A DNA stretch of 38,019 bases, from NCBI GenBank assembly GCA_029907515.1, contig JARYLT010000017.1, positions 1 through 38,019 of the forward strand. Reading direction: 5' to 3'. This DNA is from Spirochaetota bacterium. Lineage in GTDB: Bacteria > Spirochaetota > UBA4802 > UB4802. Below are positions 9,530 through 37,742 of this stretch, piece by piece. Position 1 is the first letter of the stretch, and the number at the start of each line of letters is the position of its first letter. The notes under the pieces are model-generated. The model did not search any database, was not told the origin of the DNA, and was given only the letters and a program-made list of their open reading frames with translations. The position numbers and the translations under genes were made by a program.

Positions 9530-10507
9530 TTATACAATGTTTATTCTTTCTTCCTCATTTCGTTTAAAATAATTTCTTATAAGTACAATCATATCGTTTA
9601 TTTCGTTACATTGTCGTATTGATGAAAACAATGTGTGGCCAAATTTTACATTTTTGTGATAATATGCACAAAAACGGTGTGCCCTGCTTTTGTGAAGCTT
9701 CTGCGGAAGCATTACCTGTATATTTTGTAATACGTCTATCCACATTTCTTCAATATTAAGCGATAGCGACAGCGATTGTTGCCGCAATGCAGCTTCACAC
9801 TGTGCAAATATCCATGGTTTCTGTACCGCTGCTCTGCCAATCATGATGCCATCACAATGGGTTTGCTGTAAACGATGTAGTGCTGATGCTGGTTCACTGA
9901 TATCGCCATTGCCAATAACAGGGATGTTTACCTCAGTTACTATCGCCTCAATGATATCCCAGCGAGCTTTGCGTGTAAATCCCCATTTTGCAGCACGTGG
10001 ATGAATAATGACTGCATCCACACCTTCATCCTGCAGCATACTAACAAATTGACGTAAGAATTGAAGGTTAACATCATGAAAGCCAGCACGCATCTTAACA
10101 GTAAGAAGGCCGTAAACGTTTTTTCTGCAAGCGACAATAACTGACTTTGCCAGGTGGAAATTGCAAAGAAGACTGGCACCAGCGCCAGTTTTAAGAATAT
10201 GCGGTGCAGAGCATGCCATGTTTATATTAATGCCATCACATCCGTAATCCTGTAAAATTGTTGCAGCGTTGGCCATAATGTCAGGATTATTCCCAACCAG
10301 CTGGTAAAAAAAAGGATTGTCAAAATCATAGCGCTGTATTAAAGGCTCGTTATGGGGTGCTTTTGCATGTATAGCACCACTTGCAAGCATCTCAGAATAC
10401 AGAACAACGTTATCAGTAAAATTTTTGACAACCTTACGCAGCGCTGGTGTGGTAAGCTCTGCCATGGGCGCTAAATGCAGTGTGTGATGTGTGCCATTAA
10501 TAACCAT
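9530..10507 (-). CDS. dus: tRNA-dihydrouridine synthase
   Basis: The FMN enzyme reduces specific uridines in the tRNA D-loop. The 325-residue product has LAPMAELTTPALRK at the start of the TIM barrel, the catalytic cysteine C99 in NINMACSAPHI, the VKMRAGF segment with K138, IIHPRAAKWGF, IGNGDI and IMIGRAAVQKPWIF, which bind flavin and substrate. NMACS replaces the common NMGCP, but the cysteine is kept. The subclass (A, B or C) cannot be set with certainty. One copy of ACTATCGC lies inside at 9939. Confidence 0.93.
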   Translation of the reverse strand: MVINGTHHTLHLAPMAELTTPALRKVVKNFTDNVVLYSEMLASGAIHAKAPHNEPLIQRYDFDNPFFYQLVGNNPDIMANAATILQDYGCDGININMACSAPHILKTGAGASLLCNFHLAKSVIVACRKNVYGLLTVKMRAGFHDVNLQFLRQFVSMLQDEGVDAVIIHPRAAKWGFTRKARWDIIEAIVTEVNIPVIGNGDISEPASALHRLQQTHCDGIMIGRAAVQKPWIFAQCEAALRQQSLSLSLNIEEMWIDVLQNIQVMLPQKLHKSRAHRFCAYYHKNVKFGHTLFSSIRQCNEINDMIVLIRNYFKRNEEERINIV

Positions 10508-10528
10508 AGTATATAAAGCATGTTGTTT

Positions 10529-11455
10529 TTATCTTCGCCAGCGTTCGTCGTATTTGTTTAGTAGCAAGCTTAACAACAAACTAACGAACATAATTAAAAT
10601 TGCGAAAAACCCATATGAGATGTACCACGGTATCCCCTGGGTCATCATTGAGTATTCTGACATGCCAAAAATACCAGCTATTAAATTTAAAGGTAGAAAT
10701 ATTACATTTATCTTTGTTAGATTTTTAATAAGAATATTCATGTTGTTGTTCACAATGCTTCCACGGGCATCCATAAGACCAGCAAAAACTTCTGTATAAA
10801 TTTCTGCCTGCTTTTTTGCCTGGTGGTGGTCAATGATAATATCATTTAAGAAATCAAAATTAACACGCTGATTATTAGTAATAAGATATGACCGTAATTT
10901 TTCAAGGGAAGTAATGTTGGTATCTATTGCATGCAGGTAGTATATTAACTTTTCGCTGAGATTAAACATTTGCACTAAATGTTTTGTTTCAATGGATTTA
11001 TTAATTTTATTCTGAATTTCCTTTGAAATCATTTTAATGATTTTTAGATGTTCAGTAAAATGTTTTATTGTATGGTGTTGAAAATGAAACAGTACATCAA
11101 AAAGTGATTCGATCTGATTGTGTACTTTTTCGTGAATATATGTTAAAGTTTCAGGACTGATGATAATCATTGTACTGTCTTTTATGAAGAAGCCTATAGT
11201 TATAACGTTAAGGGATGAAAGTTCATTTATTGTCATAGATGTTGGAATTTTCCAGATTAAAACAAGATAATCTTTTTCAATTTCAAATCGTGACAGCTCT
11301 TCAGTATCCAGAGCTGAATAGAGTGAATGAATATCTATTGAGTAATTAAGGGCTATAGTATTTATTTCTTCATCATCGGGGTTTGAATATATTAATATAG
11401 TACCATCAAATTTCTTTACCAATGAATCTTTAGTAAATTCATATTGTTCTAACAT
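10529..11455 (-). CDS. corA: CorA-family divalent metal ion transporter with variant GMN motif
   Basis: The 308-residue protein has a large cytoplasmic alpha/beta N-domain (1 to about 245), long helices, and two C-terminal membrane segments (about 248-268 and 278-299) ending in a basic tail, the CorA topology. The pore signature normally reads GMN, but here it is G264-M265-S266 in FGMSEYSM. The asparagine is central to hydrated Mg selectivity in CorA, so substrate or selectivity may differ, as in divergent CorA-like or ZntB-like proteins. A strong AGGAGGT ribosome-binding site precedes the ATG. The dus start is 21 bases downstream of its stop, so the two may share a transcript. Confidence 0.88.
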   Translation of the reverse strand: MLEQYEFTKDSLVKKFDGTILIYSNPDDEEINTIALNYSIDIHSLYSALDTEELSRFEIEKDYLVLIWKIPTSMTINELSSLNVITIGFFIKDSTMIIISPETLTYIHEKVHNQIESLFDVLFHFQHHTIKHFTEHLKIIKMISKEIQNKINKSIETKHLVQMFNLSEKLIYYLHAIDTNITSLEKLRSYLITNNQRVNFDFLNDIIIDHHQAKKQAEIYTEVFAGLMDARGSIVNNNMNILIKNLTKINVIFLPLNLIAGIFGMSEYSMMTQGIPWYISYGFFAILIMFVSLLLSLLLNKYDERWRR

Positions 11456-11834
11456 ATTGGTTACCTCCTACAATAGTATTTTATCAACAGTATTTTATAA
11501 ACATAATCCCAGGTTTTTCCTGAAATCTATTATTAACATTATATCCTGAATCACGTTCAGGATGGCTTTAAAATGATGTAATTCTGGAATTGACACGAAT
11601 CATTTCATTCATTAAATGTAAAATTCTGAATCATTTTTAAAACTCGATACAGGTTACTATTCAGAATCACTCTGTCTCTGCAATTACAAAATTCTTGACT
11701 TGCCATTATTGATGGTGGCTATAGTAATAGCTTATGATAATGTGTAAATATATAGTGATATGTCAAATGAATAATGATTTGTATTTTAGCCACGACTACA
11801 TGGAATTATTAGTCATACACAGAGTTATACTTGC
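11456..11834. other. Intergenic region with short hairpins and a possible promoter
   Basis: These 379 bases between divergent genes hold no convincing frame. TCCTGAA and TTCAGGA at 11544-11562 form a perfect 7-bp stem around a 5-base loop. Further CTGAATCA or TTCAGAATCA fragments at about 11625-11670 look like decayed copies of the same palindrome. A TTGACT at 11695 followed 19 bases later by TATAGT at 11720 is a candidate promoter for the THEP1 gene; the spacing is longer than ideal. Confidence 0.4.
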
Positions 11835-12371
11835 ATGAATATGAAGAAGAATATATTTTTAACTGGTGCGCCTTCATCAGGCAAAACAACTGTGATAAAA
11901 AAAGTTATAGCAATGCTGCCGTATTCAGCCAATGGTTTTTATACTGAAGAAGAAAGAGTGGAAGGCAGGCGCACTGGTTTTGTATTGCATACGCTTGATG
12001 GCAAAACAGGGTATTTAGCACATCAGGATATTGCCTCACCATATCATATACGGCGGTATGGTGTGGATATACATAATGTTGAGACAATTGCTGTCCCGTC
12101 AATCATTCCAAAAGGCAATACAATTATTATACTGGACGAAATTGGTAAGATGGAATGTTTTTCAGAAACATTTAAAGAAACAGCACTAAAAGCACTTGAT
12201 AGCCCAAATATTGTTATTGGTACCATAACATTGGGTGGGGACGAATTCATTCAAGCTATAAAGCAGCGTGATGATATGGAAATACATGAAGTAACATTGG
12301 AAAACAGAGACATATTGCCTGATATCATTGTTCAAAAGGTTAAAAATCTTATGATAAATAGTGATGAATAA
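11835..12371 (+). CDS. THEP1-type nucleoside-triphosphatase
   Basis: The 178-residue P-loop protein matches the THEP1 (COG1618) family of small NTPases with low, broad NTP hydrolysis in vitro; the cellular role is unknown. Walker A is GAPSSGKT at 11-18. The family's Walker B reads IIILDEIGKMEC with D101 and E102. FYTEE and RRTGFVL in between are also typical. A start two codons later (MKKN) is equally plausible. It stands alone, and a hairpin at 12441-12467 may end its transcript. Confidence 0.9.
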   Translation: MNMKKNIFLTGAPSSGKTTVIKKVIAMLPYSANGFYTEEERVEGRRTGFVLHTLDGKTGYLAHQDIASPYHIRRYGVDIHNVETIAVPSIIPKGNTIIILDEIGKMECFSETFKETALKALDSPNIVIGTITLGGDEFIQAIKQRDDMEIHEVTLENRDILPDIIVQKVKNLMINSDE

Positions 12372-12440
12372 TCTTTTATCACTTCATATTAATTTTAATG
12401 TAAATTTATTGATTATGTAAAATTCGTAAATAAAAATTTC

Positions 12441-12467
12441 AATCCTGTTGCTTAATAAAGCAGGATT
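12441..12467 (+). terminator. Possible rho-independent terminator after the THEP1 gene
   Basis: AATCCTG and CAGGATT form a 7-bp stem, extendable with a bulge through TTGCTT/AAG, followed by a short mixed TTTTATA run rather than a clean T-tract. It is a weak candidate. Confidence 0.4.
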
Positions 12468-12543
12468 TTATAGGACTTTGTTTCTAATATTTTTTCAAAT
12501 AATTGTTTACAAATTCTATTATAGTAATGTAATTATATGATCA

Positions 12544-13488
12544 ATGGTTCGTAAAAAAGATAACAACTTCCCCAACCCTGAAGGCAAGATCAACGTATTG
12601 AAGCGCTACCTTCATATACTGGCGCTTCTGCAATCACCACCTGGAACCAACGAAACCTGGAATGCAGCAAGACTTGCACAGTTACTATCGCTTGAAGAAG
12701 ATGAAAAAGACATTAGCGACAGCCATGTCCGAAAATACATCAAAGACCATATAGAAAATGAGTTAGGAATAAGTGTTGACCGTACACAGGGCGGACTCAT
12801 AACAGCACTTGCAGAAGACCTTGATCCTGACATGCAGCTTGAAATTGCGCGGGTATATAGCGACTTTGTGGTAAAGGACTCAACGCGTGATATGATATTG
12901 CAAAAATTTATTGCAGCAAATCCTGATCGGGCACTATGGACATTGGCACGCATCTATTTTGCAGCGCTTGAGAAACGCATGATACAATGTAGCTACAAAA
13001 CCAATGAAGGGCAGTTACTAACTGGCTGGAAACTGTGTCCCTGTTATTTTATATTTCGTAACAACAATCTGTATCTTATAGTGTATGATGTAGATATGAA
13101 AAAATACCTTCCGCTTGTTGCTGAGCGCATACAGAATATTGTGGTATGTGATAAAAAACATGATATTAGCTGGGAAGTCCCTGATGTTGATGAGTTATTT
13201 GCAACGTCACTGAGCGCATTTATTGATAACACCAATATAGTGGAAGTTACCATTCGCTATTCACAGGTTGTAAAAACAATCATTGAAAATATTATTGCCT
13301 CGTTACAGCCTGCAATACAAAAGGAGCCCAATAACTGGCACAGAGCAACATTTACCATAAGCGATTATCTTTACCTGTGCAAACAGCTTGTGCTGTATGG
13401 AAGAGAAGTAGAGATAGTAAGCCCACACAAGGTACGACAGGCCATGATACACATGCTTAAGGAAAGCTTAAGCGTGTATGAACAATAA
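12544..13488 (+). CDS. WYL-domain transcriptional regulator
   Basis: The 314-residue protein has an N-terminal winged-helix-like region (about 17-88), a WYL domain (about 135-205) and a C-terminal WCX-like extension (about 232-312, with VEIVSPHKVRQAMIHML). The WYL core is recognisable from RMIQCSYK, GWKLCPCYFIFRNNN and LYLIVYD; the eponymous W-Y-L becomes L-Y-L. WYL regulators sense nucleic acids or nucleotides and often control defence genes (BrxR, CapW). There is no clear Shine-Dalgarno sequence before the ATG, and an AT-rich TATAGT lies about 20 bases upstream, so a very short leader is possible. It precedes the double-AAA+ gene by 168 bases on the same strand and probably controls it. Confidence 0.85.
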   Translation: MVRKKDNNFPNPEGKINVLKRYLHILALLQSPPGTNETWNAARLAQLLSLEEDEKDISDSHVRKYIKDHIENELGISVDRTQGGLITALAEDLDPDMQLEIARVYSDFVVKDSTRDMILQKFIAANPDRALWTLARIYFAALEKRMIQCSYKTNEGQLLTGWKLCPCYFIFRNNNLYLIVYDVDMKKYLPLVAERIQNIVVCDKKHDISWEVPDVDELFATSLSAFIDNTNIVEVTIRYSQVVKTIIENIIASLQPAIQKEPNNWHRATFTISDYLYLCKQLVLYGREVEIVSPHKVRQAMIHMLKESLSVYEQ

Positions 13489-13656
13489 ACATCGCAAGTC
13501 AGTTGCTACCTTTTTTACTATGCTTATAGTATTTTACCAATAAATAACCTGCCATACGTAGTCTAAATGTAGTAGCGATAGTTACTCATAAAGGATCTAT
13601 CTTCAACAACCACGGTGTTAACAAAGTACCCTATATTACCATTACAGGAGGTAGCT

Positions 13657-15894
13657 ATGCCTTTACCAAAATCATATCGACGTCACCATAGACTTTTTCA
13701 CAGAGCACCACAGCCAGGACTGGATGCTTCAATACGTAAAGAGATAATGGAATACACAATGAATTTGCTGCAGCATTTAGAACCAAACGAACGCTTGCTA
13801 ACACTGTGTATGGAATGTTTAAGTATTACAAGCCGTAGAGAGATAGTAGAATCACTGTTTTCTGAAAAAGAAAAGAAAAACCGTAATGAATTTGGTCCAA
13901 ATTATTATGAAGATGCATTAGGGAGCTTGCATAATCCTTCAGACTTAGCTTCTACAATTATGCGGATTGTACTGAGTACTGTGCAAAAGAAAAAATGGGA
14001 TACAGTACGTTACAAGATTTTTATGTTAATAAAAAAAGAATATGAAACTATTGCACAGTATAAACATGAATTAGATGAGCGCTTATCTAAATTGGCGGCA
14101 TTTTTTTCACTCACTGGCATTGATTGCACTATTATGAAGCTATGGGCTATAGCTATTTCAATACCAAACAGCCCGTTAAAAGAACTGTTGTCTGAAGTTA
14201 ATTACAGTGAATTGCAAAAACGCATTGCTATTGCTACAGGATTGCCGCTTGCTGCTGTTAGAATGTCCCTATCAAAAAAAGGGCTTTTATATACCTCTCG
14301 CATCATTGAGTCTATAAATCCTGATGGTTATGAACATATAGTGCTGTCGGATGAAATAATTGAATTTTTGAATGATGTTGCAAGTGAAGATTTGCTTGAG
14401 AAATATGTTAAATTAGATACTGAGCCGACTATACCATTACAGGACTTCAGTGTATCAGATGATGATACATCTATAGTAACGAGTTTATTAAAAAGCAAAC
14501 AACCCTGCAATATCCTTTTATATGGATTCCCGGGAACAGGTAAAACCCAGTTTGCACGGAGCATAGCTACGCATAGTGGCCGTAAAGTCTTTATGCTTGT
14601 CTATAGCAGTGGACGCGAAAGTACCAGGCATGAAAGCATAAGTTCGCGTCTTATGGCTGTAACCATTGCTATGAAGATAGCTGAAAAAAATGATGCAATT
14701 CTGATTATAGATGAAGCAGATGAGCTTCTTAATACACAATCGTTTTTTCCACTTTTTTCTTTTGATTCAGGCAATAAAGGCAGGATTAATGATTTGCTTG
14801 ATACCAGTAATGCGCAGTGTATCTGGATAACTAATTCTATATATGGAATATCATCGTCAACATTGCGCCGTTTCAACTACAGCATAACGTTTAAGCACTT
14901 CACTTCTGCACAGCGTATTGTCCTATGGCAAAGAATACTTAAACACAGTGAGCTTGAAAAATATTTCACCAGTGAGATAATCCATGAACTATCGCATAAA
15001 TATGCCGTTAATGCTGCGGGAATTGCAAGTAGCATCAAAGCAGTTGAAACAATGTTTACACACAAGACTATATCGGAAGACAAAATAGTTCCCGTGATTG
15101 AAAAGCTATTACAACGTCACCTTAAGCTTTCTGGCAACATGAATATAGAAAAGCTTAATCCATTAACCCCACAGTATGATCTGACATTCTGCAATACTGA
15201 TACCAATCTTGATGGAGTTGTAAAGGCTGTCAGGCGATATTATTCTGGGCAATGCAATGTTACAAACATTTCTATTCTGCTATGGGGACCATCAGGTACA
15301 GGAAAGACTGAGTTTGTCAAATATCTTGCAAAGGAGGTAGGAAAAGAGCTTATCATAAAGCGTGCATCAGATTTAATAGACAAGTATGTGGGGGAAACCG
15401 AAAAACTTATGCGCCAGGCCTTTGAAGAAGCGCACGAAAAAAATGCACTGCTATTTATTGATGAGGCTGACACATTTTTTGCAAGCCGCGAGCATGCACA
15501 GCGTTCCTGGGAAATTTCTTTTGTCAATGAGATGTTAGTTCAAATGGAAAATTTTACAGGGGTTTTTATTTGTTCAACTAATATGCTTGAGCTTTTAGAC
15601 AGTGCTGTTATGCGTCGTTTTTCATTTAAAATTAAGTTTAACCCTGTAAAAGCTGACATGCGTGTTAAAATGTATGAGCGTTATTTTGTAGGCGATAGCA
15701 ACCAGCTGTCTTTGCCGCAAAAGAAAAGAATTGCAGGCCTTGAAGGGTTAACGCCAGGACATGTCAAAGCCGTGCATCAGAAAATCGTGATGATGGATGA
15801 GTTAAACAACCACGATGTCATCATAGATGCCCTTGAAAAAGAAGTACAGTATATGATGAAAAATAAAAACTCCAAAACAGGCTTTTCTATATAA
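13657..15894 (+). CDS. Double AAA+ domain ATPase (COG0464/Cdc48-like architecture)
   Basis: The 745-residue protein starts at the ATG at 13657, which has a perfect AGGAGGT site; the frame opens earlier at a GTG (13615) with no such site. About 270 N-terminal helical residues match nothing I recognise. The first AAA+ module has Walker A GFPGTGKT (290-297), Walker B IIDEAD (about 350-355) and an LRRF sensor or finger segment. The second has GPSGTGKT (544-551), pore-loop-like KYVGETEKL, Walker B FIDEAD (600-605) and RRF near 653-655. Both sites look competent. Tandem AAA+ rings unfold or remodel proteins. No protease or transmembrane domain is present. It is followed after 28 bases by the HTH-coiled-coil gene, so the two form an operon. 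Confidence 0.88.
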   Translation: MPLPKSYRRHHRLFHRAPQPGLDASIRKEIMEYTMNLLQHLEPNERLLTLCMECLSITSRREIVESLFSEKEKKNRNEFGPNYYEDALGSLHNPSDLASTIMRIVLSTVQKKKWDTVRYKIFMLIKKEYETIAQYKHELDERLSKLAAFFSLTGIDCTIMKLWAIAISIPNSPLKELLSEVNYSELQKRIAIATGLPLAAVRMSLSKKGLLYTSRIIESINPDGYEHIVLSDEIIEFLNDVASEDLLEKYVKLDTEPTIPLQDFSVSDDDTSIVTSLLKSKQPCNILLYGFPGTGKTQFARSIATHSGRKVFMLVYSSGRESTRHESISSRLMAVTIAMKIAEKNDAILIIDEADELLNTQSFFPLFSFDSGNKGRINDLLDTSNAQCIWITNSIYGISSSTLRRFNYSITFKHFTSAQRIVLWQRILKHSELEKYFTSEIIHELSHKYAVNAAGIASSIKAVETMFTHKTISEDKIVPVIEKLLQRHLKLSGNMNIEKLNPLTPQYDLTFCNTDTNLDGVVKAVRRYYSGQCNVTNISILLWGPSGTGKTEFVKYLAKEVGKELIIKRASDLIDKYVGETEKLMRQAFEEAHEKNALLFIDEADTFFASREHAQRSWEISFVNEMLVQMENFTGVFICSTNMLELLDSAVMRRFSFKIKFNPVKADMRVKMYERYFVGDSNQLSLPQKKRIAGLEGLTPGHVKAVHQKIVMMDELNNHDVIIDALEKEVQYMMKNKNSKTGFSI

Positions 15895-15922
15895 GGAAAT
15901 TTTATATCAAAAGGAGAAAACC

Positions 15923-16642
15923 ATGTACGCAATACATAGATTTTTACAGGAAACAATGAAACAAAAGAAAATATCCAAAAAAGAATTAGCGCAGCGTTTA
16001 GGATATAACAATATATCAAAAGGTATAAGACGCATTGATGAATTTTTAGAGAAGGCAACACTCAATGAATATATCGTATCTAATCTACATAGTGCACTTG
16101 ATGAACCAAAGGAAAAGATACTTGAAAAGTTAGAAGAAACAAAAGAAGAGATTGTACGTGAAATACAAAAGCAGGAAGAGGAAAAAAGGCAAAAACAAGA
16201 AGAAGAGCGCAAAAACTTTAAACCTTTTTTATACTGTGTAACAGAAGATCCAAAACCTTCGCCAATTTTTATTTGTGCAATTACACAATCATTTTTGTTG
16301 AAAAAGGTTGACCTGCCCATCACTTTCAATGAGCTATCGATAGAAGCAAAACAAAAAGCTATAAAGGATGCAATAAAAGAGCATCATAGTTTTGTAGAGC
16401 AAAGATGGCATGGGAGGATTCCTGCCTATGGGAAGATTTTAGCCTATACACTTGTTGTAGAGTATGATTATAATGAAGAAGATTTGCCAGTATATGCCAT
16501 TGATGGAAGTATTATAGAAAATCCCCCACGCTTTTATCAGGACATTGAATTAGGAGTGGCGTATATTGGAATACAGAAGAAGAAAGATATAACATGGTTT
16601 TTTAAAAATGTTGAAATTGTTATAGAAAAAATTCAGCGATAA
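15923..16642 (+). CDS. HTH / coiled-coil protein of unknown function, partner of the AAA+ ATPase
   Basis: The 239-residue product begins with a Cro/CI-like helix-turn-helix (about 1-58; KKISKKELAQRLGY). A highly charged Glu/Lys/Gln coiled coil follows (about 62-98), then a compact C-terminal domain of about 140 residues (RWHGRIPAYGK, LVVEYDYNEEDLP) that I do not recognise. An AAAGGAG site precedes the ATG. It lies 28 bases after the AAA+ gene and is almost certainly cotranscribed. The layout suggests a DNA- or target-recognising adaptor that oligomerises through the coiled coil and feeds the ATPase, but this is inference from architecture only. Confidence 0.75.
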   Translation: MYAIHRFLQETMKQKKISKKELAQRLGYNNISKGIRRIDEFLEKATLNEYIVSNLHSALDEPKEKILEKLEETKEEIVREIQKQEEEKRQKQEEERKNFKPFLYCVTEDPKPSPIFICAITQSFLLKKVDLPITFNELSIEAKQKAIKDAIKEHHSFVEQRWHGRIPAYGKILAYTLVVEYDYNEEDLPVYAIDGSIIENPPRFYQDIELGVAYIGIQKKKDITWFFKNVEIVIEKIQR

Positions 16643-16754
16643 ATACCAAAACACACTAAATTACTTATTTTATTAAATCTACCTTTCTACATTTTACTTG
16701 ACTAAATCTGTACAATAGGACAATAACGGCACAATATATATTGGCGAGGTACTA

Positions 16755-17216
16755 ATGATAAAATACATAATCCCGCTATTACTTGTTGTATGTGCTGGCT
16801 GCACACAGTATGTTGATGTGGGTGATGTTGAGTTTTCAGTACAGGTGGTTTTCCAGCAAAATGTACCTGTATTTGCCACTACCTATACCATAACCCTATT
16901 AAACACCAGTATAAATAAAGTTGTAAAAAACTACACGGCAACAGTGGCGATAGTTACTGAAGATAAGCATACTCTTAAGCAATTAACAGTTGCTGCTGAT
17001 AAACTTTTGCCAAAGCAAGTACAACAGATAACCATTACACAGAATGAATCTGAAGAAGCAATTAAACCACTATTCAATGAATTGGAGATAGATATTAATG
17101 AAGTAATAAAGCAGCAGGAAGCAGCTTTGGTATTGCCCGAGGGTATGGTAAAAGTGGAAAAAGCACACTATGAAACCGTTGATATCGTAACATATTTACA
17201 AGAGGTTGGACAATGA
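16755..17216 (+). CDS. Putative lipoprotein
   Basis: The 153-residue protein has a signal sequence with a lipobox-like VCAGC, predicting lipidation at C16 and export to the cell envelope. The remainder alternates beta strands (FSVQVVF, YTITLLNTS, TATVAIVT) like an immunoglobulin-type or FxLYD-like domain, with no recognised family. A GCGAGGT site precedes the ATG. The stop overlaps the next start by four bases (ATGA), so the two products are coupled and probably work together. Confidence 0.65.
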   Translation: MIKYIIPLLLVVCAGCTQYVDVGDVEFSVQVVFQQNVPVFATTYTITLLNTSINKVVKNYTATVAIVTEDKHTLKQLTVAADKLLPKQVQQITITQNESEEAIKPLFNELEIDINEVIKQQEAALVLPEGMVKVEKAHYETVDIVTYLQEVGQ

Positions 17217-23739: not shown

Positions 23740-24912
23740 ATGAAAAAGTATTTTATCATTTGTATTATGATGTGTGTGGCCATTGCTCCAATTGCTTTTT
23801 CCCAGTCAACGATGAAGAGCTCATTTAAAGCTGATGTGGAAGCTCAAAGAATAAAGAATAAAAAAAGTATTACTGAAGTAAAACAGCAATTAGAAGCTAT
23901 ACGCAAAGATATTAAAGAGCGCAACCTGAAATTCAAAGTTGATATGACTGAAGCGTTAAAGCGCCAGATTGAGGAAATAACCGGCACCGTACCACCAAAG
24001 GATCTTGAAAAAGAAGCTGAAATACAATCCAGCAAGGGTTTCCAGTTATTTCTTGAATTTTTGCAGCGGTTGGCTGAAGCTCAGGCTGCAAAGCGACAGG
24101 CTGAGTTACAACCTGAGAAAAAAGAACCTGTAAAACCTAAAGAAGAAGTAGTAAAAAAGGAAGATCAAAAAGAAGAAAAGCCTGAAGCAGTTACCCCAGC
24201 AAAACCAGAAGAAACATTGCCCGAATCATTCATGCTAGCTGATCCTTCACAACCAGTGCTTGACTGGTTTGCGCTGGGAATGATGACAGCTGTTAAAGAT
24301 CAGGGACTGTGTGGAAGCTGCTGGTCATTTACCGCAATGGGTGTGGTGGAAGGTTGTTACAAGATAAATAAAAAAACTGATATTAATCTTTCAGAACAAT
24401 ATATGATTGATTGTGCCCGTGATAAATATGGACGGGATGCAGGTAGCTGTAATGGTGGATGGTATGGCAATGTATTTGATTTTATGATGACCAACTATCC
24501 TGTTGAAGAAAAGATTGCCCCATACCGGGGATATGAATATGGATGCACTCCTAAAAAACAGATACCCATAAAGCTTGTAGCATGGGGGTATGTCCGCAAA
24601 GATGGAGGTATCCCTTCAGTTGATGAAATGAAAAAGGCATTGTGTACCTATGGACCAATTGCTGCCACTGTAAAGGTTACCCCGGCTTTTCAGGCATATG
24701 TTGGTGGTATATTTGATGAATTTACACCGGTGAGCAGCCCCAAAGATGTCAATCATGGAATAATTATTGTAGGCTGGGATGATAGTAAAAAAGCTTACAG
24801 GATAAAGAACTCCTGGGGTGAGCGTTGGGGCGAAAAAGGCTACATGTGGATAGAATATGGATGCAATAACATTGGTTATGGGGCAGCGTGGGTTGTCCTT
24901 GACAAAGAATAA
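23740..24912 (+). CDS. Secreted papain-family (C1A) cysteine protease
   Basis: The 390-residue product has a signal peptide (1 to about 21, ending in AFSQ). A charged coiled-coil pro-like region follows (about 27-125), then a Lys/Glu/Pro linker (about 126-160) and a papain domain (about 170-388). The catalytic set is complete: Q188 and C194 in QGLCGSCWSF, H339 in VNHGIIIVGW and N357 in KNSWGERWG. Extra cysteines (C206, C225, C237, C269) suggest disulfides, consistent with export. A GGAG site lies before the ATG. The next gene, 20 bases on, encodes a chagasin-type inhibitor of exactly this protease class, so they probably form one unit. Confidence 0.92.
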   Translation: MKKYFIICIMMCVAIAPIAFSQSTMKSSFKADVEAQRIKNKKSITEVKQQLEAIRKDIKERNLKFKVDMTEALKRQIEEITGTVPPKDLEKEAEIQSSKGFQLFLEFLQRLAEAQAAKRQAELQPEKKEPVKPKEEVVKKEDQKEEKPEAVTPAKPEETLPESFMLADPSQPVLDWFALGMMTAVKDQGLCGSCWSFTAMGVVEGCYKINKKTDINLSEQYMIDCARDKYGRDAGSCNGGWYGNVFDFMMTNYPVEEKIAPYRGYEYGCTPKKQIPIKLVAWGYVRKDGGIPSVDEMKKALCTYGPIAATVKVTPAFQAYVGGIFDEFTPVSSPKDVNHGIIIVGWDDSKKAYRIKNSWGERWGEKGYMWIEYGCNNIGYGAAWVVLDKE

Positions 24913-29666: not shown

Positions 29667-29932
29667 GGTGGATTTCCTTATGTGTTATAATGTGTGGGAT
29701 ACCATTATGGAGTCAGAGCTTGAAAACTGGCAAGTAAAAATTTATGATTGAAAAGCTGTGGAGCTTGCATGTTCAATAAAAATTAAAAAAGGCTTGAAAA
29801 AAAGAAAATATAGTAAAAATTTTATATTTAACGACATAGAAATTGCAGATATATGAAAATTTGTGTTTATGTACAAATGGTGAAACTTAACAAGATGAAT
29901 TCAATTATGATATATTGTAAAAGATCTTTGTG

Positions 29933-32473
29933 ATGGCAGAAAAAGAAGCAAAAGCAAGAATAAAAATAAATAAATTGCTGGAAGAGGCAGGCTGGAGGTT
30001 TTTTGACACTGAAGAAGGCAAAGCTAATGTTTTATTAGAAAATAACGTTAAAATAAACAAACAAAACCTTAACGAGTTTGGTGAAAATTTTGAACATACC
30101 ACAAATGGGTATGTTGATTTTTTGCTTCTTGATGAAAAAGGTTTTCCTTTTGTTGTACTGGAAGCAAAGTCAGAGGATAAAAACCCACTATTTGGGAAAG
30201 AACAGGCCCGTAAATATGCTCTTGCTCAGAATTGTCGTTTTGTTATACTTTCCAATGGGAATATACATTATTTCTGGGATCTGGAAAGGGGAAATCCTCA
30301 TATCATAAGCAAATTTCCTTCTTTAGAAACCATCCGGGGATATGCAGAATTTAAGCCCGATAAAAATCGTCTTGTAGAAGAAATTGTCAATGAGGACTAT
30401 ATTGTCCTGACACAGAAACCTGATTATAAAGATGATCCATCCTTTAAAAATGAGGAAACCAGACAGAGATATATTGTAGAGAATAAATTACGTTTCCTGA
30501 GAAATTATCAATTACGGGCAGTGAAATCTATTCAAAATGCTGTACAGGAAGGCAGGGACAGGTTTCTTTTTGAAATGGCAACGGGTACTGGTAAAACCCT
30601 TGTTGCTGCTGCCCTGATTAAATTATTTTTAAGAACAGGCAATGCTCGCCGTGTATTATTCCTGGTAGATCGTCTTGAACTTGAAAACCAGGCAGACAGG
30701 GCTTTCAGGGATTATCTTAAAAATGACTATAAGACAGTTATTTATAAAGAAAATCGAGACGATTGGCGAAAAGCCGAAATTGTAGTTTCTACTATTCAAA
30801 CCTTCCTTTCAAAGAATCGGTATAAACGAGTATTTTCACCTGATGATTTTGACCTTGTGATTTCTGATGAAGCCCATAGAAGTATTGGTGGAAATAGTCG
30901 TGCGGTGTTTGAGTATTTTATTGGTTATAAACTGGGGCTTACAGCTACGCCCAAAAACTATCTGAAAAATATAGATATATCTAAACTTGGCGAGAATGAC
31001 CCGCGTCAGCTTGAAAGAAGACTGCTTCTTGACACATACAAGACTTTTGGTTGTGAAAATGGGGAACCAACGTTCAGGTATTCTCTTGTCGATGGTGTCA
31101 AAGATGGTTTTCTGGTAAACCCCATAGTGGTGGATGCGCGAACTGAAATAACCACGCAGTTGCTTTCAGACGAAGGCTATGCGATTACCATCCAGGATGA
31201 GGAAGAGAAAGATGTAGAAGAGGTATTTGACCACAGAGACTTTGAAAAAAGGTTTTTCTCCGAAAATACGAATAAGGTATTCTGCAAAGCGTTTATGGAA
31301 AATGCCCTGAGAGACCCTGTAACCGGCGAAATAGGAAAGACAATTATTTTTTGTGTATCGCAGAATCATGCGGCAAAAATTACCCAGATTCTAAATGAAA
31401 TGGCACATCAAATGTTTCCGGGTAAATATAATTCCGATTTTGCAATTCAGGTTACATCAAGCATTCCAGATGCACAGCAATTTACCATTAATTTTACCAA
31501 CAACAACCTTTCCGGCTCGGGTAATTTTGACCCGGCATACAGGACAAGCAAGACCCGTGTATGTGTAACGGTAGGAATGATGACTACTGGATATGATTGT
31601 CAGGATATTCTTAATCTCTGTTTGATGAGACCTATTTTTTCACCCACAGAGTTTATCCAGATAAAAGGAAGGGGCACAAGAAAATATAATTTTACCAACG
31701 ATCTTACTGATTTACAAAGGAAAAAGCAGATAGGCGATAAACACAAAGAACATTTTAAACTCTTTGATTTCTTCGCTAACTGTGAGTACTTTGAGGAAAA
31801 ATTTAATTACGATGAAGTACTGGAGATTCCTCGAACAGGTGGAAAAGATTATTCTTCAAGTGATCTTGCATCAGTGGTGAATGACCTTAATGAAAGTGGT
31901 GAGTATCATAGTACCAGAGATGATCATATAACTGCACTGGATCATACCGTGATTGGCCCTGATGGCATGAAAATTGATCGAATGTACTTTGAAAAATTTG
32001 AAAGAAAGATTATTGAACATCCTGTAATCAAAGAAAAAGCAGAAGCAGGGGAATGGGACGAACTACTGAATTATATAGAAAATAATATACTTAACAAACC
32101 AGAAGATTATTTTACACTGGAAAAATTACGCAAATCCATCAACATTGATCGCCGGATTACGATGAGAGAAATCATAGAGAAAATTCTTGGGATTATTCCT
32201 TATTTCAAGACAAAGGATGAACTACTGGAAGAAGAGTTTGATAAATTTGATAGCCGGTATTTGCCAAAAGAAGAGTATTTTACTTATGCTAAAACTGTGT
32301 TTAAGGCATACATCCTTGATGCTGAATTCAGGGCTATAATAGACAATAAGCATTTTGCGCTTCTCAATATTTCGCCCTATGGCGAAGCATTCAAAAAATT
32401 ACCGCCCGAACTTCGGAGCGCAATTCCGGAGTATATTAAAGATTTTGTAACACTTAACAATTTTGCAGCTTGA
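29933..32473 (+). CDS. hsdR: Type I restriction endonuclease, R subunit
   Basis: The 846-residue subunit (ATG at 29933; a GTG three bases earlier also fits) carries an N-terminal PD-(D/E)XK nuclease (D63 in GYVDFLLL, E78 and K80 in VLEAKSE), an SF2 translocase with Walker A EMATGTGKT (216-223 from the GTG), DEAH (313-316), LTATP (337-341) and the motif VI IKGRGTRKY. Its C-terminal part (about 600-830) resembles the helical partner-binding region. It cleaves DNA that lacks methylation by the MS fusion. There is no strong ribosome-binding site. The gene is separated from the modification genes by a repeat array and the GxxExxY gene. Confidence 0.94.
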   Translation: MAEKEAKARIKINKLLEEAGWRFFDTEEGKANVLLENNVKINKQNLNEFGENFEHTTNGYVDFLLLDEKGFPFVVLEAKSEDKNPLFGKEQARKYALAQNCRFVILSNGNIHYFWDLERGNPHIISKFPSLETIRGYAEFKPDKNRLVEEIVNEDYIVLTQKPDYKDDPSFKNEETRQRYIVENKLRFLRNYQLRAVKSIQNAVQEGRDRFLFEMATGTGKTLVAAALIKLFLRTGNARRVLFLVDRLELENQADRAFRDYLKNDYKTVIYKENRDDWRKAEIVVSTIQTFLSKNRYKRVFSPDDFDLVISDEAHRSIGGNSRAVFEYFIGYKLGLTATPKNYLKNIDISKLGENDPRQLERRLLLDTYKTFGCENGEPTFRYSLVDGVKDGFLVNPIVVDARTEITTQLLSDEGYAITIQDEEEKDVEEVFDHRDFEKRFFSENTNKVFCKAFMENALRDPVTGEIGKTIIFCVSQNHAAKITQILNEMAHQMFPGKYNSDFAIQVTSSIPDAQQFTINFTNNNLSGSGNFDPAYRTSKTRVCVTVGMMTTGYDCQDILNLCLMRPIFSPTEFIQIKGRGTRKYNFTNDLTDLQRKKQIGDKHKEHFKLFDFFANCEYFEEKFNYDEVLEIPRTGGKDYSSSDLASVVNDLNESGEYHSTRDDHITALDHTVIGPDGMKIDRMYFEKFERKIIEHPVIKEKAEAGEWDELLNYIENNILNKPEDYFTLEKLRKSINIDRRITMREIIEKILGIIPYFKTKDELLEEEFDKFDSRYLPKEEYFTYAKTVFKAYILDAEFRAIIDNKHFALLNISPYGEAFKKLPPELRSAIPEYIKDFVTLNNFAA

Positions 32474-32516
32474 GTTAAACTGGATTAACAAGATTTATAA
32501 GATTAACAGGATATTC

Positions 32517-32624
32517 AGGATGAACAAGATGAACAGGATAAATAGGATGAACAAGATGAACAGGATAAATAGGATGAACAGGATGAACAGGATAAATAGG
32601 ATGAACAGGATGAACATGATGATT
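32517..32624. repeat. 27-bp tandem repeat array, four copies
   Basis: The unit consists of three 9-mers, AGGATGAAC, AAGATGAAC and AGGATAAAT. Copies start at 32517, 32544, 32571 and 32598. The first two are identical, the third has one change (A to G in the second 9-mer), and the fourth decays at its end. The flanks, 32481-32516 and 32630-32706, hold further scattered GATTAACAGGAT and GGATATTCAGGAT words, so the whole 233-base gap between hsdR and the GxxExxY gene is built from one motif. No spacers exist, so it is not CRISPR. Confidence 0.95.
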
Positions 32625-32706
32625 TGATTAACAGTATATTCAGGGTTAACAGGATTAATAGTATAACAGATAACATGATTAACAGGATTAAGAGGATATT
32701 CAGGAT

Positions 32707-33132
32707 ATGAAATATGAAAGTTTAACAGAACAGATTTTGGGATGCGCTTTTGAGGTTATTAATGAGCTTGGTTCAGGATTTCTTGAGTCTGTTTACGAAA
32801 AAGCAATGCTAATTGTATTAAAAGAGAAAGGGTTGTCTGTTGTGAATCAGTTTCCTGTGCATGTTTATTTCAGAAATAATATGGTTGGAGTGTTTTACGC
32901 AGACTTATTTGTAGAAAATAAAGTAATTGTTGAACTGAAAGCCGTAAAGTCAATTTTACCTGAACATAAAGCACAGGTTATTAATTATTTAAAAGGTACT
33001 GGCATTGAAGTCGGATTATTATTAAACTTTGGCAGTCAGAAGCTCGAATTTAACCGTCTTTATTTGCCTGAAAGTACAAATCCTGATAATTCTGATAATC
33101 TTGTAAATCCTGATAATCCTGTTAAAGTATGA
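32707..33132 (+). CDS. GxxExxY protein (PD-(D/E)XK-like fold)
   Basis: The 141-residue protein has the name-giving motif GSGFLESVYEKAM (22-34), then YADLFVENKVIVELKAVKSI with D86, E95 and K97 as a nuclease-like triad, and the LLNFG segment near 104-108. The family's function is unknown; members are frequent in defence and repeat-rich regions. The last 20 residues (PDNSDNLVNPDNPV) are encoded by the reverse-complement form of the GGATNAACAGGAT repeat that also forms the upstream array, so the tail is repeat-derived. The ribosome-binding region (CAGGAT) is itself repeat sequence. The hsdMS start follows 13 bases later. Confidence 0.88.
   Translation: MKYESLTEQILGCAFEVINELGSGFLESVYEKAMLIVLKEKGLSVVNQFPVHVYFRNNMVGVFYADLFVENKVIVELKAVKSILPEHKAQVINYLKGTGIEVGLLLNFGSQKLEFNRLYLPESTNPDNSDNLVNPDNPVKV
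33079..33126 (-). repeat. Repeat-derived 3' end of the GxxExxY gene
   Basis: The stretch consists of AATCCTGATAAT, TCTGATAATC and AATCCTGATAATCCTGTT words, the complement of the ATTAACAGGAT motif in the array at 32517-32624. It encodes the Asn-Pro-Asp-rich C-terminal tail. Confidence 0.8.
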
Positions 33133-33145
33133 GGGGAAGGCTATA

Positions 33146-35782
33146 ATGCTTGATAATGAAACCAAACGAAGAATCGATACTGCCCGCGATATCTTAGTCG
33201 GCAAAGTGCCCGACCCAAAGAGCCAGGTGGAGCAGATTACCATTGCTCTTGTTTATAAGTTCATGGATGACATGGACATGGAAGCGGTTGAACTTGGAGG
33301 CAAACCAAGCTTTTTTACCGGCGATTATGAGCGATACGCATGGCACAGGATTTTTGACCCCCGTATCGGCGGCTATGAGATGCTGAATCTCTATGCAGAT
33401 GCCATCACACGGATGAGCCAGAACCCAAACCTTCCCGAGCTATTCCGCAATATCTTCAAAAATGCTTATCTTCCATACCGAGATCCTGAAACTCTTAAGC
33501 TTTTTCTAAAAACCATCAATGAATTCACCTACGACCATTCCGAACGCCTGGGCGATGCCTTTGAGTATCTGCTTTCAGTGCTGGGCAGTCAGGGCGATGC
33601 CGGGCAATTCCGCACCCCGCGTCATATCATTGATTTTATGGTGGCGATAGTTAGCCCTCAAAAAAACGAACTCATCCTTGACCCTGCCTGTGGTACTGCC
33701 GGATTTTTGATTTCGGCATATAAACATATCATGCGCGAAAACACCTCCGAAAAATACCGCTCCAGCAATGGCAATGGTAGAGGGGACCTGCTTACTACGG
33801 AGGAACGAAAAAAACTGCTTACCAATTTCAAAGGCTATGACATTTCGCCCGACATGGTGCGGCTTTCGCTTGTCAATATGTATCTGCACGGCTTTGTAAA
33901 CCCTCAAATATACGAATACGACACCCTGACGAGCGAAGACCGATGGAACGAATATGCCGACGTCATCCTTGCCAATCCGCCCTTTATGACCCCGAAGGGA
34001 GGCATCAAGCCGCACAAACGATTCAGCGTGCAGAGCAACCGTAGCGAGGTACTTTTTGTCGACTACATCGTCGAGCATCTCACTCCCACCGGAAGGGCTG
34101 CGGTGATTGTCCCCGAAGGGATCATCTTTCAGAGTGCCAATGCCTATAAGCAGCTTCGCAGGATGCTGGTTGAAAATTATCTGTATGCGGTGGTCTCACT
34201 ACCCGCTGGAGTGTTTCAGCCCTACTCAGGTGTAAAGACTTCAATCCTGCTTATGGATAAGGTGCTTTCTAAAAAGACCGATAGCATTCTGTTTGTAAAG
34301 ATTGAAAACGATGGATTTGACCTTGGAGCTCAGCGCCGCCCCATTGACAGAAACGACCTGCCCGATGCTCTGCAGGTGATCCGTGAATATATTGACAAGG
34401 TAAGAAATGGCAAAGCAGATGAATTTAATGCCGACGAAAAACCCTGCTCCGCCCTGCTGGTGAAGAAAGAAAAACTTGCCGAAAACGGCGAATACAACCT
34501 CACCAGCGATAGATACCGCGTAGTAGAAAAACGCAAACACCAGAAATGGCCCATGGTGAGACTGGGGGAAATTGCAGAATATATAAATGGTTTCCCATTC
34601 AAACCAACAGATTGGAAGTCTTCAGGGAAAAAGATTATTAGAATCCAAAATCTTACAGGAACAAGTGATACTTATAATTACACTGACAAAAAAGATATTC
34701 CTAATAAATATTTGATAAAGCGAGGTGATCTTCTTATTTCATGGTCAGCAACAATTGGATTTTATTTTTGGAACGATGAGGAAGCTTACCTAAATCAGCA
34801 TATTTTTAAAGTTGTTCCTTCTGAAAAGGTTTTGAAAGAATATCTCTATGTCTTACGCTTTAAAATAATAGAAGAAATTACTGGAAATGTTCATGGTAAT
34901 ACAATGAAGCATATTACAAAAGATCGTTTTGATAATATTATAATCCCCCTTCCACCGCTTGAAGTACAGCAAGAGATAGTGGCAGAGATAGAGGGCTACC
35001 AGAAGATCATCGACGGCTGCAGGCAGGTGATAGACGCCTGGAAGCCCGATGTAGAATGGTATTTGGATGAAGCGCTACAGGAATATAATCAGAAAATTGA
35101 ACAGGATAAACAGGATAGACAGGATAAAAAAGATAAAGATTCAGTAAATCGAGATTATCCTATTCATCCTGAACATCCTGTTCAAACTCTTTCTGCATGG
35201 CCAATGGTGAAGCTGGGGGAGGTGTGTGAGAAAATTACAAAAGGTTCATCTCCAAATTGGCAAGGAATTAATTATACTGATCATCCTGGAATTCTTTTTA
35301 TTACTAGTGAAAACATTGGATTTGGTGAATTATTATTAAATAATAAAAAATATGTAGAACATAAGTTTAATGAAATAGAAAAAAAATCAATCCTAAAAAA
35401 GGGGGATGTATTAACTAACATTGTTGGAGCATCAATTGGAAGGACATGTTTATTTTATCTTGAGGAAATTTCAAATATTAATCAAGCAGTTTGTTTAATA
35501 AGATGCAAGAAAAATTTTTTAAATAATTATTATCTTATGTATTTGTTAAATTCTACATTCTACTTAAAAATATTACATTCAAACAAAGTTGAAAATGTTA
35601 GAGCAAATTTGAGTCTTAGCTTTTTTGAAAATTTGGGCATCCCACTCCCTCCCCTTGAAGTCCAGAACCGTATTGTCGATAAAATCGAATCCGAGCGGAA
35701 GGTAATCAACAACCTGCGGGAGATGGTGAAAACCTATGAGGGGAAAATTAAGCGGGTGATTGACAGGGTGTGGGGGGAGTGA
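33146..35782 (+). CDS. hsdM-hsdS: Fused type I methyltransferase-specificity subunit (HsdM-HsdS)
   Basis: This 878-residue protein joins both modification functions. Residues 1 to about 460 are HsdM, an N6-adenine methyltransferase with the SAM motif LDPACGTAGFL (178-188) and the catalytic NPPF (277-280). Residues about 468-615 and 685-850 are two HsdS target-recognition domains, each opening with WPMV.LGE and closing with PLPPLEVQ. The linker (about 648-680) is encoded by a GGATAAACAGGAT-type repeat and its inverted copy, giving an Asp-Lys-Gln run. The TRDs look more AT-rich than the conserved HsdM parts, pointing to exchange of specificity modules. A GAGGGGAAGG site precedes the ATG. Confidence 0.93.
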   Translation: MLDNETKRRIDTARDILVGKVPDPKSQVEQITIALVYKFMDDMDMEAVELGGKPSFFTGDYERYAWHRIFDPRIGGYEMLNLYADAITRMSQNPNLPELFRNIFKNAYLPYRDPETLKLFLKTINEFTYDHSERLGDAFEYLLSVLGSQGDAGQFRTPRHIIDFMVAIVSPQKNELILDPACGTAGFLISAYKHIMRENTSEKYRSSNGNGRGDLLTTEERKKLLTNFKGYDISPDMVRLSLVNMYLHGFVNPQIYEYDTLTSEDRWNEYADVILANPPFMTPKGGIKPHKRFSVQSNRSEVLFVDYIVEHLTPTGRAAVIVPEGIIFQSANAYKQLRRMLVENYLYAVVSLPAGVFQPYSGVKTSILLMDKVLSKKTDSILFVKIENDGFDLGAQRRPIDRNDLPDALQVIREYIDKVRNGKADEFNADEKPCSALLVKKEKLAENGEYNLTSDRYRVVEKRKHQKWPMVRLGEIAEYINGFPFKPTDWKSSGKKIIRIQNLTGTSDTYNYTDKKDIPNKYLIKRGDLLISWSATIGFYFWNDEEAYLNQHIFKVVPSEKVLKEYLYVLRFKIIEEITGNVHGNTMKHITKDRFDNIIIPLPPLEVQQEIVAEIEGYQKIIDGCRQVIDAWKPDVEWYLDEALQEYNQKIEQDKQDRQDKKDKDSVNRDYPIHPEHPVQTLSAWPMVKLGEVCEKITKGSSPNWQGINYTDHPGILFITSENIGFGELLLNNKKYVEHKFNEIEKKSILKKGDVLTNIVGASIGRTCLFYLEEISNINQAVCLIRCKKNFLNNYYLMYLLNSTFYLKILHSNKVENVRANLSLSFFENLGIPLPPLEVQNRIVDKIESERKVINNLREMVKTYEGKIKRVIDRVWGE
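35099..35182. repeat. Inverted repeat inside hsdS coding the inter-TRD linker
   Basis: GAACAGGATAAACAGGAT and following words (35099-35128) are the reverse complement, with mismatches, of the arm at 35152-35182 that ends ATCCTGAACATCCTGTTC. The loop is about 23 bases. The same motif makes the array upstream of the GxxExxY gene. The frame stays open through it and encodes a hydrophilic linker. Confidence 0.8.
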
Positions 35783-35784
35783 AA

Positions 35785-35853
35785 CTCTGTGCTTCTCTGT
35801 GCCCTCTGTGGTTAAAATTTTTCTCACCACAGAGAACACGGAGGGACACGGAG
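35785..35853. repeat. Long palindromic repeat (CTCTGTG/CACAGAG type)
   Basis: A 28-base left arm ending CCCTCTGTGGT (35785-35812) is complementary, with several mismatches that are mostly G-U compatible in RNA, to the right arm starting ACCACAGAGAACACGG (35826-35853). The loop is 13 bases. From general knowledge, elements of this kind recur in many environmental genomes and give spurious peptides such as NHRGHRE. It starts two bases after the hsdMS stop. Confidence 0.85.
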
Positions 35854-35905
35854 GGGAAAATCAAAGAGATGAGAGAGGAAAAAACAAAAAATTTTTTAAC
35901 TTGGT

Positions 35906-35951
35906 TTGACAAAACTGCTTTATTTGACATATATTTATTAATATATATAAA
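35906..35951 (+). promoter_or_regulatory. Two overlapping sigma-70-type promoters for the AIPR gene
   Basis: TTGACA at 35906-35911 has TATATT at 35930-35935 after 18 bases. A second TTGACA at 35924-35929 has TATAAA at 35946-35951 after 16 bases. Both lie just ahead of the AIPR start at 35980, so that gene has its own promoter and is not dependent on hsd transcription. Confidence 0.6.
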
Positions 35952-35979
35952 AGATTGAAATTGAAAAAGGGTATAAACT

Positions 35980-37742
35980 ATGAAAGAACAAGATTTTTTT
36001 GACAGGTTTATTAAGTTACTCGAAAATACAAAAGAAAATTATGAATTAGAGACATTACATGATGCTCTTATTGTGTGGTTTGGAGAAAATTATTTGTCTT
36101 TAGATCCTGAAGAAGTAAAAGAAAGAATCGTATGTGACAGACATGCGGAAGGAGTCGATGCCATTTTGATAGACCAAACAAACTTCAATCTTTTCTTTAT
36201 TCAAGCAAAAAGTGTAGATAATTTTAATAATACAAAAAATAATTTCCCTGAGAATGATGTAAAGTCAACGTTAGATGGTATACGGTTACTTTTACGAGGT
36301 GATTATAAAGGGAAAATAACTCCAGAACTAGAAAACTTAGTTAATGAGTATCATGAATTGGATAGAAGTGGTGATTATAAAACGATAATTTTATTCTTAA
36401 CTTTAAAAAAGAAACCTCTTGATTATAAGTTTATAGAAAATTTCAAAAAAGATTTTAATCAAATAGAAGTTGAATTTTATGACTTTGATCGGCTATTTGA
36501 TTTTTATAAAAATGAATATTTAATTTCAAGGGCATCTCCACCAGAAAAAATTTCTTTTGAGGTATTAACCAATTTACTTTCTAAAGATAACCCTTATAAA
36601 TCAAGAGTATTTATTTGTAAAGGGAAAGAACTTGCCAGAATTTACAATGATTATAAAGAAAGGATCTTCCAACAAAATGTTAGATACTCTTTGGGGATTA
36701 GGTCAAAGAGTATAAACAGGCAAATATTGGAAACCGCCATTAATACAATAGAAGTAAAGTTTTTTGGTATTTTAATAATGGAATAACTATAATTTGTAAT
36801 GAAATAAATGAAGCTAATTCTCTAAAAGTGATTAACCTTCATAATGCTCAAATTATAAATGGAGCCCAGACAACTTATGCATTGTATGAAGCATATAAAG
36901 ATGGAAAACTAAAAGATGATGTAGAGGTTTTAATTAAGGCTATAGAAACTGATAACAAAGATTTTATTGAAAATGTTACACTTTATACTAATTCGCAAAA
37001 TGCTATTAGGTTAAGGGATTTATGCTCTAATGATGAAATTCAACGTAAAATACAAAAAATATTGTTAGATTCTTATAAATATTTCTACGAAAGAAAAAGA
37101 GGAGAATTTGATTCATTGTATCCAACTATTGAAGAAAAAAGAAAATTGATGGGAGATAATTACAAGGTTAAAGTAATATGCAATGAAAATGCTGCACAAT
37201 CATTTTTGGCAATGTTCTTGGATAAACCTGCTCAAGCTAAAAACGAAAAAGGAAGAATTTTTATGAAGGACAAGGCAGGTTTTTATGATGAAATTTTCAA
37301 TAATAACGATGAAATTCTTGCAGAAAAAATTTTAATGTCATGGAAGTTGTTAAAATATATTGAAAAGCATAAAAAAGATTACAAGGATAACTATAAGTCG
37401 GCTCAAAAGTTACCGGATGAAGAGAGGAATGAAATTTATAAGTACGTTTTTTTACTTCATAGCGAATATTTTATATTAAATATTTTTAAAGATTTCTTAA
37501 AAAGAGACGGGTATGACATAAATAAAAAGGATGATTTAATAAATATAATTTCTAAAATTGATAGTAATGACAGACAAATACTTGAATATTATAAAACTAT
37601 TAAGAAAGGGTTGGTAGAGTACATAGATATTCTCAGAAAACAACCAGGGTACTATGATAATAAATTTTTCAAAAGTGAAAATAGTATTAGCCTTATTAGA
37701 AATTTTTTAAATCAAAAATACAGTTTTATAGAAATTATCTAA
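35980..37742 (+). pseudogene. AIPR-family abortive infection protein, split by a frameshift
   Basis: Two consecutive frames encode one AIPR-family (abortive infection phage resistance) protein. The first (35980-36786) runs through NVRYSLGIRSKSINRQILET and ends in an out-of-frame KFFGILIME. The second frame restores WYFNNGITIIC directly, then HNAQIINGAQTTYALYE (from about 36840), both hallmark AIPR segments. Adding one T to the six-T run at 36760-36765 joins them as KFFWYFNNGIT and gives a protein of about 587 residues, the family's normal size. AIPR genes often neighbour type I restriction loci. The gene is noticeably AT-rich compared with the core genes. A sequencing error, phase variation and true decay are all possible. 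Confidence 0.85.

Follow-up and report, generated by a model that had tools for sequence, protein, structure and literature searches.

Protein-threading AAA machines, Cdc48 and Vps4 among them, are recognised by an aromatic-hydrophobic-Gly pore loop, and two tandem active AAA modules with an N-terminal domain make up the double AAA+ unfoldases, among them Cdc48/p97, Rix7 and the VAT-like ATPases. IetAS, in turn, consists of an ATPase, IetA, and a protease, IetS. The described WYL-WCX regulators that concern us here are of two kinds, one of them the repressors CapW and BrxR, which are linked to defence and have a wHTH-WYL-WCX architecture. For CapW and BrxR, an inverted repeat in the upstream promoter is a criterion, one that is not universal in the family (PMC9122601). 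DriD and PafBC are activators that are themselves activated by ssDNA, and ssDNA binding by PafBC needs an RxxR pair of arginines in the WYL domain (PMC11804915).

The window, that is, the whole stretch of DNA analysed here (38,019 nucleotides of contig JARYLT010000017.1, from a Spirochaetota bacterium), has a locus in which proteins of these two sorts meet. Three codirectional ORFs lie on the + strand, at 12544-13488, 13615-15894 and 15923-16642, and encode a WYL regulator, a double AAA+ ATPase and a protein with an HTH and a coiled coil, called here the partner. All three are under purifying selection, with dN/dS values, against the closest sister genome (G016), of 0.15, 0.19 and 0.20, respectively; therefore, they are genuine genes, as the preliminary description of this DNA had supposed. 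That description saw no nuclease, protease or membrane part in the three products, and neither did we; it also suggested that they might form one undescribed system. We propose that the unit is smaller, a mobile two-gene module in which a WYL-WCX regulator would control a hexameric two-ring AAA+ remodelling ATPase, probably in conflicts with phages or plasmids. We give this proposal about an even chance of being correct.

The ATPase gene is better started at the ATG at 13657 than at the GTG at 13615, since an AGGAGG box lies just 5′ of the former and is conserved in the sister species G016 and G015. The protein encoded from 13657 to 15894 (+ strand) has 745 residues, with an N-terminal helical domain, residues 1-284 (13657-14508, + strand), followed by AAA modules 1 and 2, which account for two Pfam AAA matches. 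Thus, the tandem AAA+ architecture and the helical N-domain read from the sequence earlier hold, whereas the start moves and the domain is about 284 residues long, not about 270. The 55 homologues share this layout, their N-domains having mostly 240-330 residues. Both Walker lysines, both sensor-1 Asn residues, the twin Arg of both modules and the DE of the module-1 Walker B are invariant (55/55); in the Walker B of module 2, Glu is found in 55/55 and Asp in 52/55, with Asn in three copies. Module 2 has an aromatic-V-G pore loop, whose aromatic residue (Y, F or W) is present in 52 of the 55 homologues and whose Gly and following Glu are present in every one (55/55 each). No aromatic pore-loop motif was found in module 1 of these homologues. 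The best PDB matches of module 2 are Rix7, VAT-like ATPases and Cdc48. Judged from these residues, the ATPase is an enzyme with two catalytically intact AAA modules, the second with a Vps4/Cdc48-type pore loop, and it probably unfolds or remodels proteins.

The N-domain is modelled by AlphaFold2 (pLDDT 83.7, pTM 0.75) as mostly helical with a winged-helix-like end. A PDB fold search with this model gave no solved fold at E ≤ 0.001; MarR-type winged helices are among the weak fold matches. Weak PDB profile matches of the domain to mTERF and TIC110 were put down to helical chance.

The WYL regulator (12544-13488, + strand; 314 residues) has a helical, HTH-like N-terminal part, with a sub-threshold Pfam match to HTH_32, followed by WYL (PF13280) and WCX (PF25583) domains that score above the cut-off. 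By profile, it is nearest to DriD/PafBC (1e-20), ahead of BrxR (5e-5) and CapW (0.002). The RxxR pair is, however, incomplete: the first Arg is Ile or Val in the WYL subfamily of the window, and the aligned LVAER keeps the second Arg alone.

Neither 12360-12560 nor 13480-13680 contains a near-perfect short-gap dyad of the BrxR/CapW kind. The 168-bp gap between the WYL and ATPase genes (13489-13656, + strand) is unusually conserved, in blocks, among G000, G016 and G015, and is the best candidate for an operator, with the promoter, of the ATPase gene. The first ~75 bp of the gap are also found 3′ of a lone WYL gene, 89% identical to that of the window, in G040, which is of another family. The shared segment suggests horizontal transfer of the WYL gene; at the same time, a near-identical regulator without any ATPase in the genome speaks against a two-gene module. 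We also asked whether the gap might encode a leader RNA or a riboswitch, but dismissed the idea, as its fold is not better than that of shuffled sequences (z = −0.28), Rfam gives no match and there is little covariation. Likewise, we decided against reading the conserved block behind the WYL gene as the end of a mobile element, as close copies of the block occur solely behind this WYL gene.

What speaks for a pair is the distribution of the two genes. The ATPase occurs in 8 of the 46 genomes of the window's order and in 43 of the 393 of its phylum; the WYL family is broader (23 of the 46 genomes of the order), and its members often stand alone. In 28 of 55 loci, the ATPase has a WYL gene at a distance of no more than 7 kb. 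For the loci in genomes, one is near the ATPase in 21 of 47, versus 1 of 20 control regions (Fisher p = 0.001, related loci not being independent), and for annotated plasmid loci, which range from Desulfosarcina to Pantoea, in 11 of 14. It is because of this linkage in both genomes and plasmids, well over the control level and in lineages unrelated to one another, that we take WYL and ATPase to be a real, mobile and uncharacterised pair. The conserved co-occurrence that the preliminary description proposed to look for in three genes holds for these two, and the pair has no assignment to a housekeeping complex. The orientation of the genes varies among the loci (codirectional, divergent or convergent), and the WYL proteins of loci from other lineages (L112, L122 and L129) are of a different subfamily, with 14-18% identity; therefore, the pairing has been kept or rebuilt repeatedly. 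Further, the ATPase is cleanly absent from G004, which is of another genus and where the WYL gene is cut to ~85 nt plus its tail and the neighbours align at 75-83% to those in G005 (L067 versus L065). The joint loss of WYL and ATPase there counts as evidence for a module. Against a module stand roughly half of the ATPase loci, in which no WYL gene was detected within 7 kb, and one distant ATPase clade whose neighbourhood is fixed and metabolic (a cation efflux transporter and PanB).

Among viral contigs, neither the ATPase nor the partner has a close relative. Phage matches to the ATPase are mostly single generic AAA modules, and a match over 52% of the protein comes from one faecal phage scaffold that has no annotation. 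Loci of the WYL-AAA type may figure in the RNA-repair survey of Burroughs and Aravind (NAR 2016), and it is possible that WYL-AAA-RtcB plasmid loci have been described before.

Is the pair a defence system? The three genes lie, with CorA and a THEP1-type NTPase, in a variable segment (10472-16687, no strand assigned), a 6.2-kb block that is replaced in the sister species G014. The flanks there align at 66.7-78% and nothing between them does; the same site (L168, 1044-8365) holds a C5 methyltransferase, an HATPase-type restriction gene, an unknown 421-aa gene and an HhH-GPD nickase-like gene, that is, a type II restriction-modification set. A type III methyltransferase follows the WYL-ATPase module in G015. 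On plasmids, the ATPase loci are found beside BREX, HEPN, HipA, Sir2 and nuclease genes, often RecB-like nucleases, and 9 of the 14 annotated plasmid loci have a DUF2779, TM0106 or PD-(D/E)XK gene. In contrast to this local association with restriction systems in G014 and G015, which agrees with the link to defence first suspected, the enrichment in defence islands that it led one to expect is not seen in the phylum: 47 ATPase loci show no excess of PADLOC matches over 20 control regions (115 neighbours versus 115 control proteins). Going by gene content and context, the WYL-ATPase pair is a candidate for which a defence role is likely.

Some neighbouring genes of the window deserve mention. 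The lipoprotein gene at 16755-17216 and a 143-aa gene were considered as members of the system and rejected, as they stay by the SUF genes in G014, which does not have the system. At 23740-24912 lies a gene for a cysteine protease of the papain family (C1), whose start resembles a signal peptide and whose pro-region is charged and coiled. The stretch 29930-37742 encodes a type I restriction-modification system, made up of HsdR and an 878-aa fusion of HsdM with HsdS, and, after it, an AIPR/AbiU gene that appears to be divided between two ORFs (35980-36786 and 36828-37742); the presence of these genes counts in favour of a conflict-related role of the pair.

The partner (15923-16642, + strand; 239 residues) had been read as an HTH, a long coiled coil and an unrecognised C-terminal domain, and the AlphaFold2 model (pLDDT 84.6) agrees, with an XRE-type HTH, a 35-residue coiled-coil helix (residues 63-97) and a C-terminal α/β part. 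Residues ~1-70 have fold matches to restriction-modification controller proteins and other XRE regulators with a probability of 0.9-1.0 but E > 0.1. The C-terminal domain, with an invariant PSPIF motif, has no fold match, and the partner matches nothing significantly in Pfam. A weak PDB profile match of the coiled coil to PA28 was put down to coiled-coil chance. None of the residues that are invariant in the family is an Asp, Glu, His or Cys; therefore, a catalytic output is improbable. The partner would fit better as a lineage-specific accessory, whether an adaptor, a local regulator or a substrate.

Could the partner be the third component of a dedicated defence system, with the WYL protein as sensor-repressor, the AAA+ protein as motor and the partner as DNA-binding adaptor or effector? 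Besides the selection acting on it, the partner adjoins the ATPase in four loci (G000, G016, G015 and G042, the last truncated and divergent; two are intact) and lies ~5 kb (4-6 kb) from it in two more (G005 and G285). The family is found in 12 of the 393 genomes, and 8 of these 12 have the ATPase, versus 43 of 393 (p = 4e-6); outside the genus the count is 5 of 9 (p = 8e-4), both p-values ignoring relatedness. Nevertheless, 35 of the 43 ATPase genomes have no partner homologue, an outcome that the preliminary description had named in advance as counting against its proposal, and the partner is separable both ways. In G015 it is broken (start codon ATA, then a frameshift and a stop) while WYL and ATPase are intact, and in G004 it is intact although the ATPase is deleted and WYL is a stump; it also persists without the ATPase in G007 and others. 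The 28-bp spacing to the ATPase, true of the window, is ~190 bp at an 84%-identical sister locus. We thus consider the three-gene system improbable: the partner is an optional add-on, not an obligate third part. It may even belong to an unrelated small system, as an XRE regulator on its own or an antitoxin-like gene, and have no more in common with the ATPase than the variable sites that both occupy. Copies that stand alone among unrelated genes (G004, G007, G316, G105 and G129) and repeated disruption (G015, G316 and G285) argue for this reading, against which stands the co-occurrence above expectation, outside the genus too; we regard it as an appreciable possibility, somewhat short of an even one. 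The partner family is absent from plasmids. Another conserved small gene (31% identity, E = 5e-20) is found beside the ATPase in G043 and G009. Separately, a small unknown protein directly 3′ of the ATPase in G009 (L063, 14477-14824) is 59% identical to one in G037 (L051, 6585-6944), where it is near a lone WYL gene with a metallo-β-lactamase-fold gene.

With regard to the pair itself, a stress or housekeeping chaperone of the Cdc48/Vps4 type, WYL-controlled and unrelated to phages, might clear, for example, DNA-bound or aggregated proteins after damage. The PDB matches of module 2, the closeness of the WYL profile to the DNA-damage activators DriD and PafBC and the lack of defence enrichment around genome loci are all consistent with this; yet it is unlikely, given that the ATPase is patchy, occurs on plasmids and occupies a variable chromosomal site, and that the PafBC-type Arg pair for ssDNA is incomplete in the regulator. 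A divergent IetAS-type system, with an IetA-like ATPase and a different effector, is highly improbable. IetA is the best match of module 2 in PADLOC (138 bits, E = 1e-40) and in NCBIfam, but in the latter the score is 128 bits against a cut-off of 510 (NF042959), the IetA model spans ~370 aa with one AAA module, the match is limited to the generic AAA fold, and no subtilisin-like IetS or other protease is found among the ORFs flanking the module.

For the mobile WYL-ATPase module that we prefer, the following scheme can be drawn. The ATPase would hexamerise, its helical N-domain, with the winged-helix-like end, would select a protein or nucleoprotein target, and module 2 would thread and disassemble it. 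The WYL regulator may keep expression at a low level as long as no ligand reports infection or stress. The partner would be one of several interchangeable accessories, and the most likely role would be in conflicts with phages or plasmids, alone or alongside neighbouring nucleases. It is tempting, though tentative, to go further and see here an undescribed anti-phage or anti-plasmid class, widespread in bacteria and plasmids, in which a WYL-gated two-ring unfoldase with a new recognition domain disassembles nucleoprotein complexes of the invader, with HTH-coiled-coil proteins as accessories here and RecB-like nucleases elsewhere. If so, the bacterial conflict systems would gain an AAA+ machine that unfolds proteins and is switched by a WYL regulator of its own, and the pair would test whether immunity can pull apart the complexes of an invader instead of cutting its nucleic acid. 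As the pair is freed from the third gene, experiments may begin with two genes.

In comparison with described systems, the locus is like CapW and BrxR in having a WYL-WCX regulator beside a possible defence gene, but its WYL protein matches DriD and PafBC better and its upstream region has no palindrome of their kind. With DriD and PafBC it shares the WYL-WCX region, and it departs from them at the first Arg of the essential RxxR. IetA is the nearest match of module 2 in PADLOC and NCBIfam, and the ATPase differs from it in its two AAA modules, its score far under the cut-off and its lack of a protease partner. The closest likeness in architecture is to Cdc48/p97, Rix7 and the VAT-like unfoldases, with which it has in common the two tandem active modules, the aromatic pore loop and an N-terminal domain. 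Unlike in these, the N-domain of ~284 residues matches that of Cdc48 in neither sequence nor fold, the pore-loop aromatic is confined to module 2, and the ATPase is paired with a WYL regulator.
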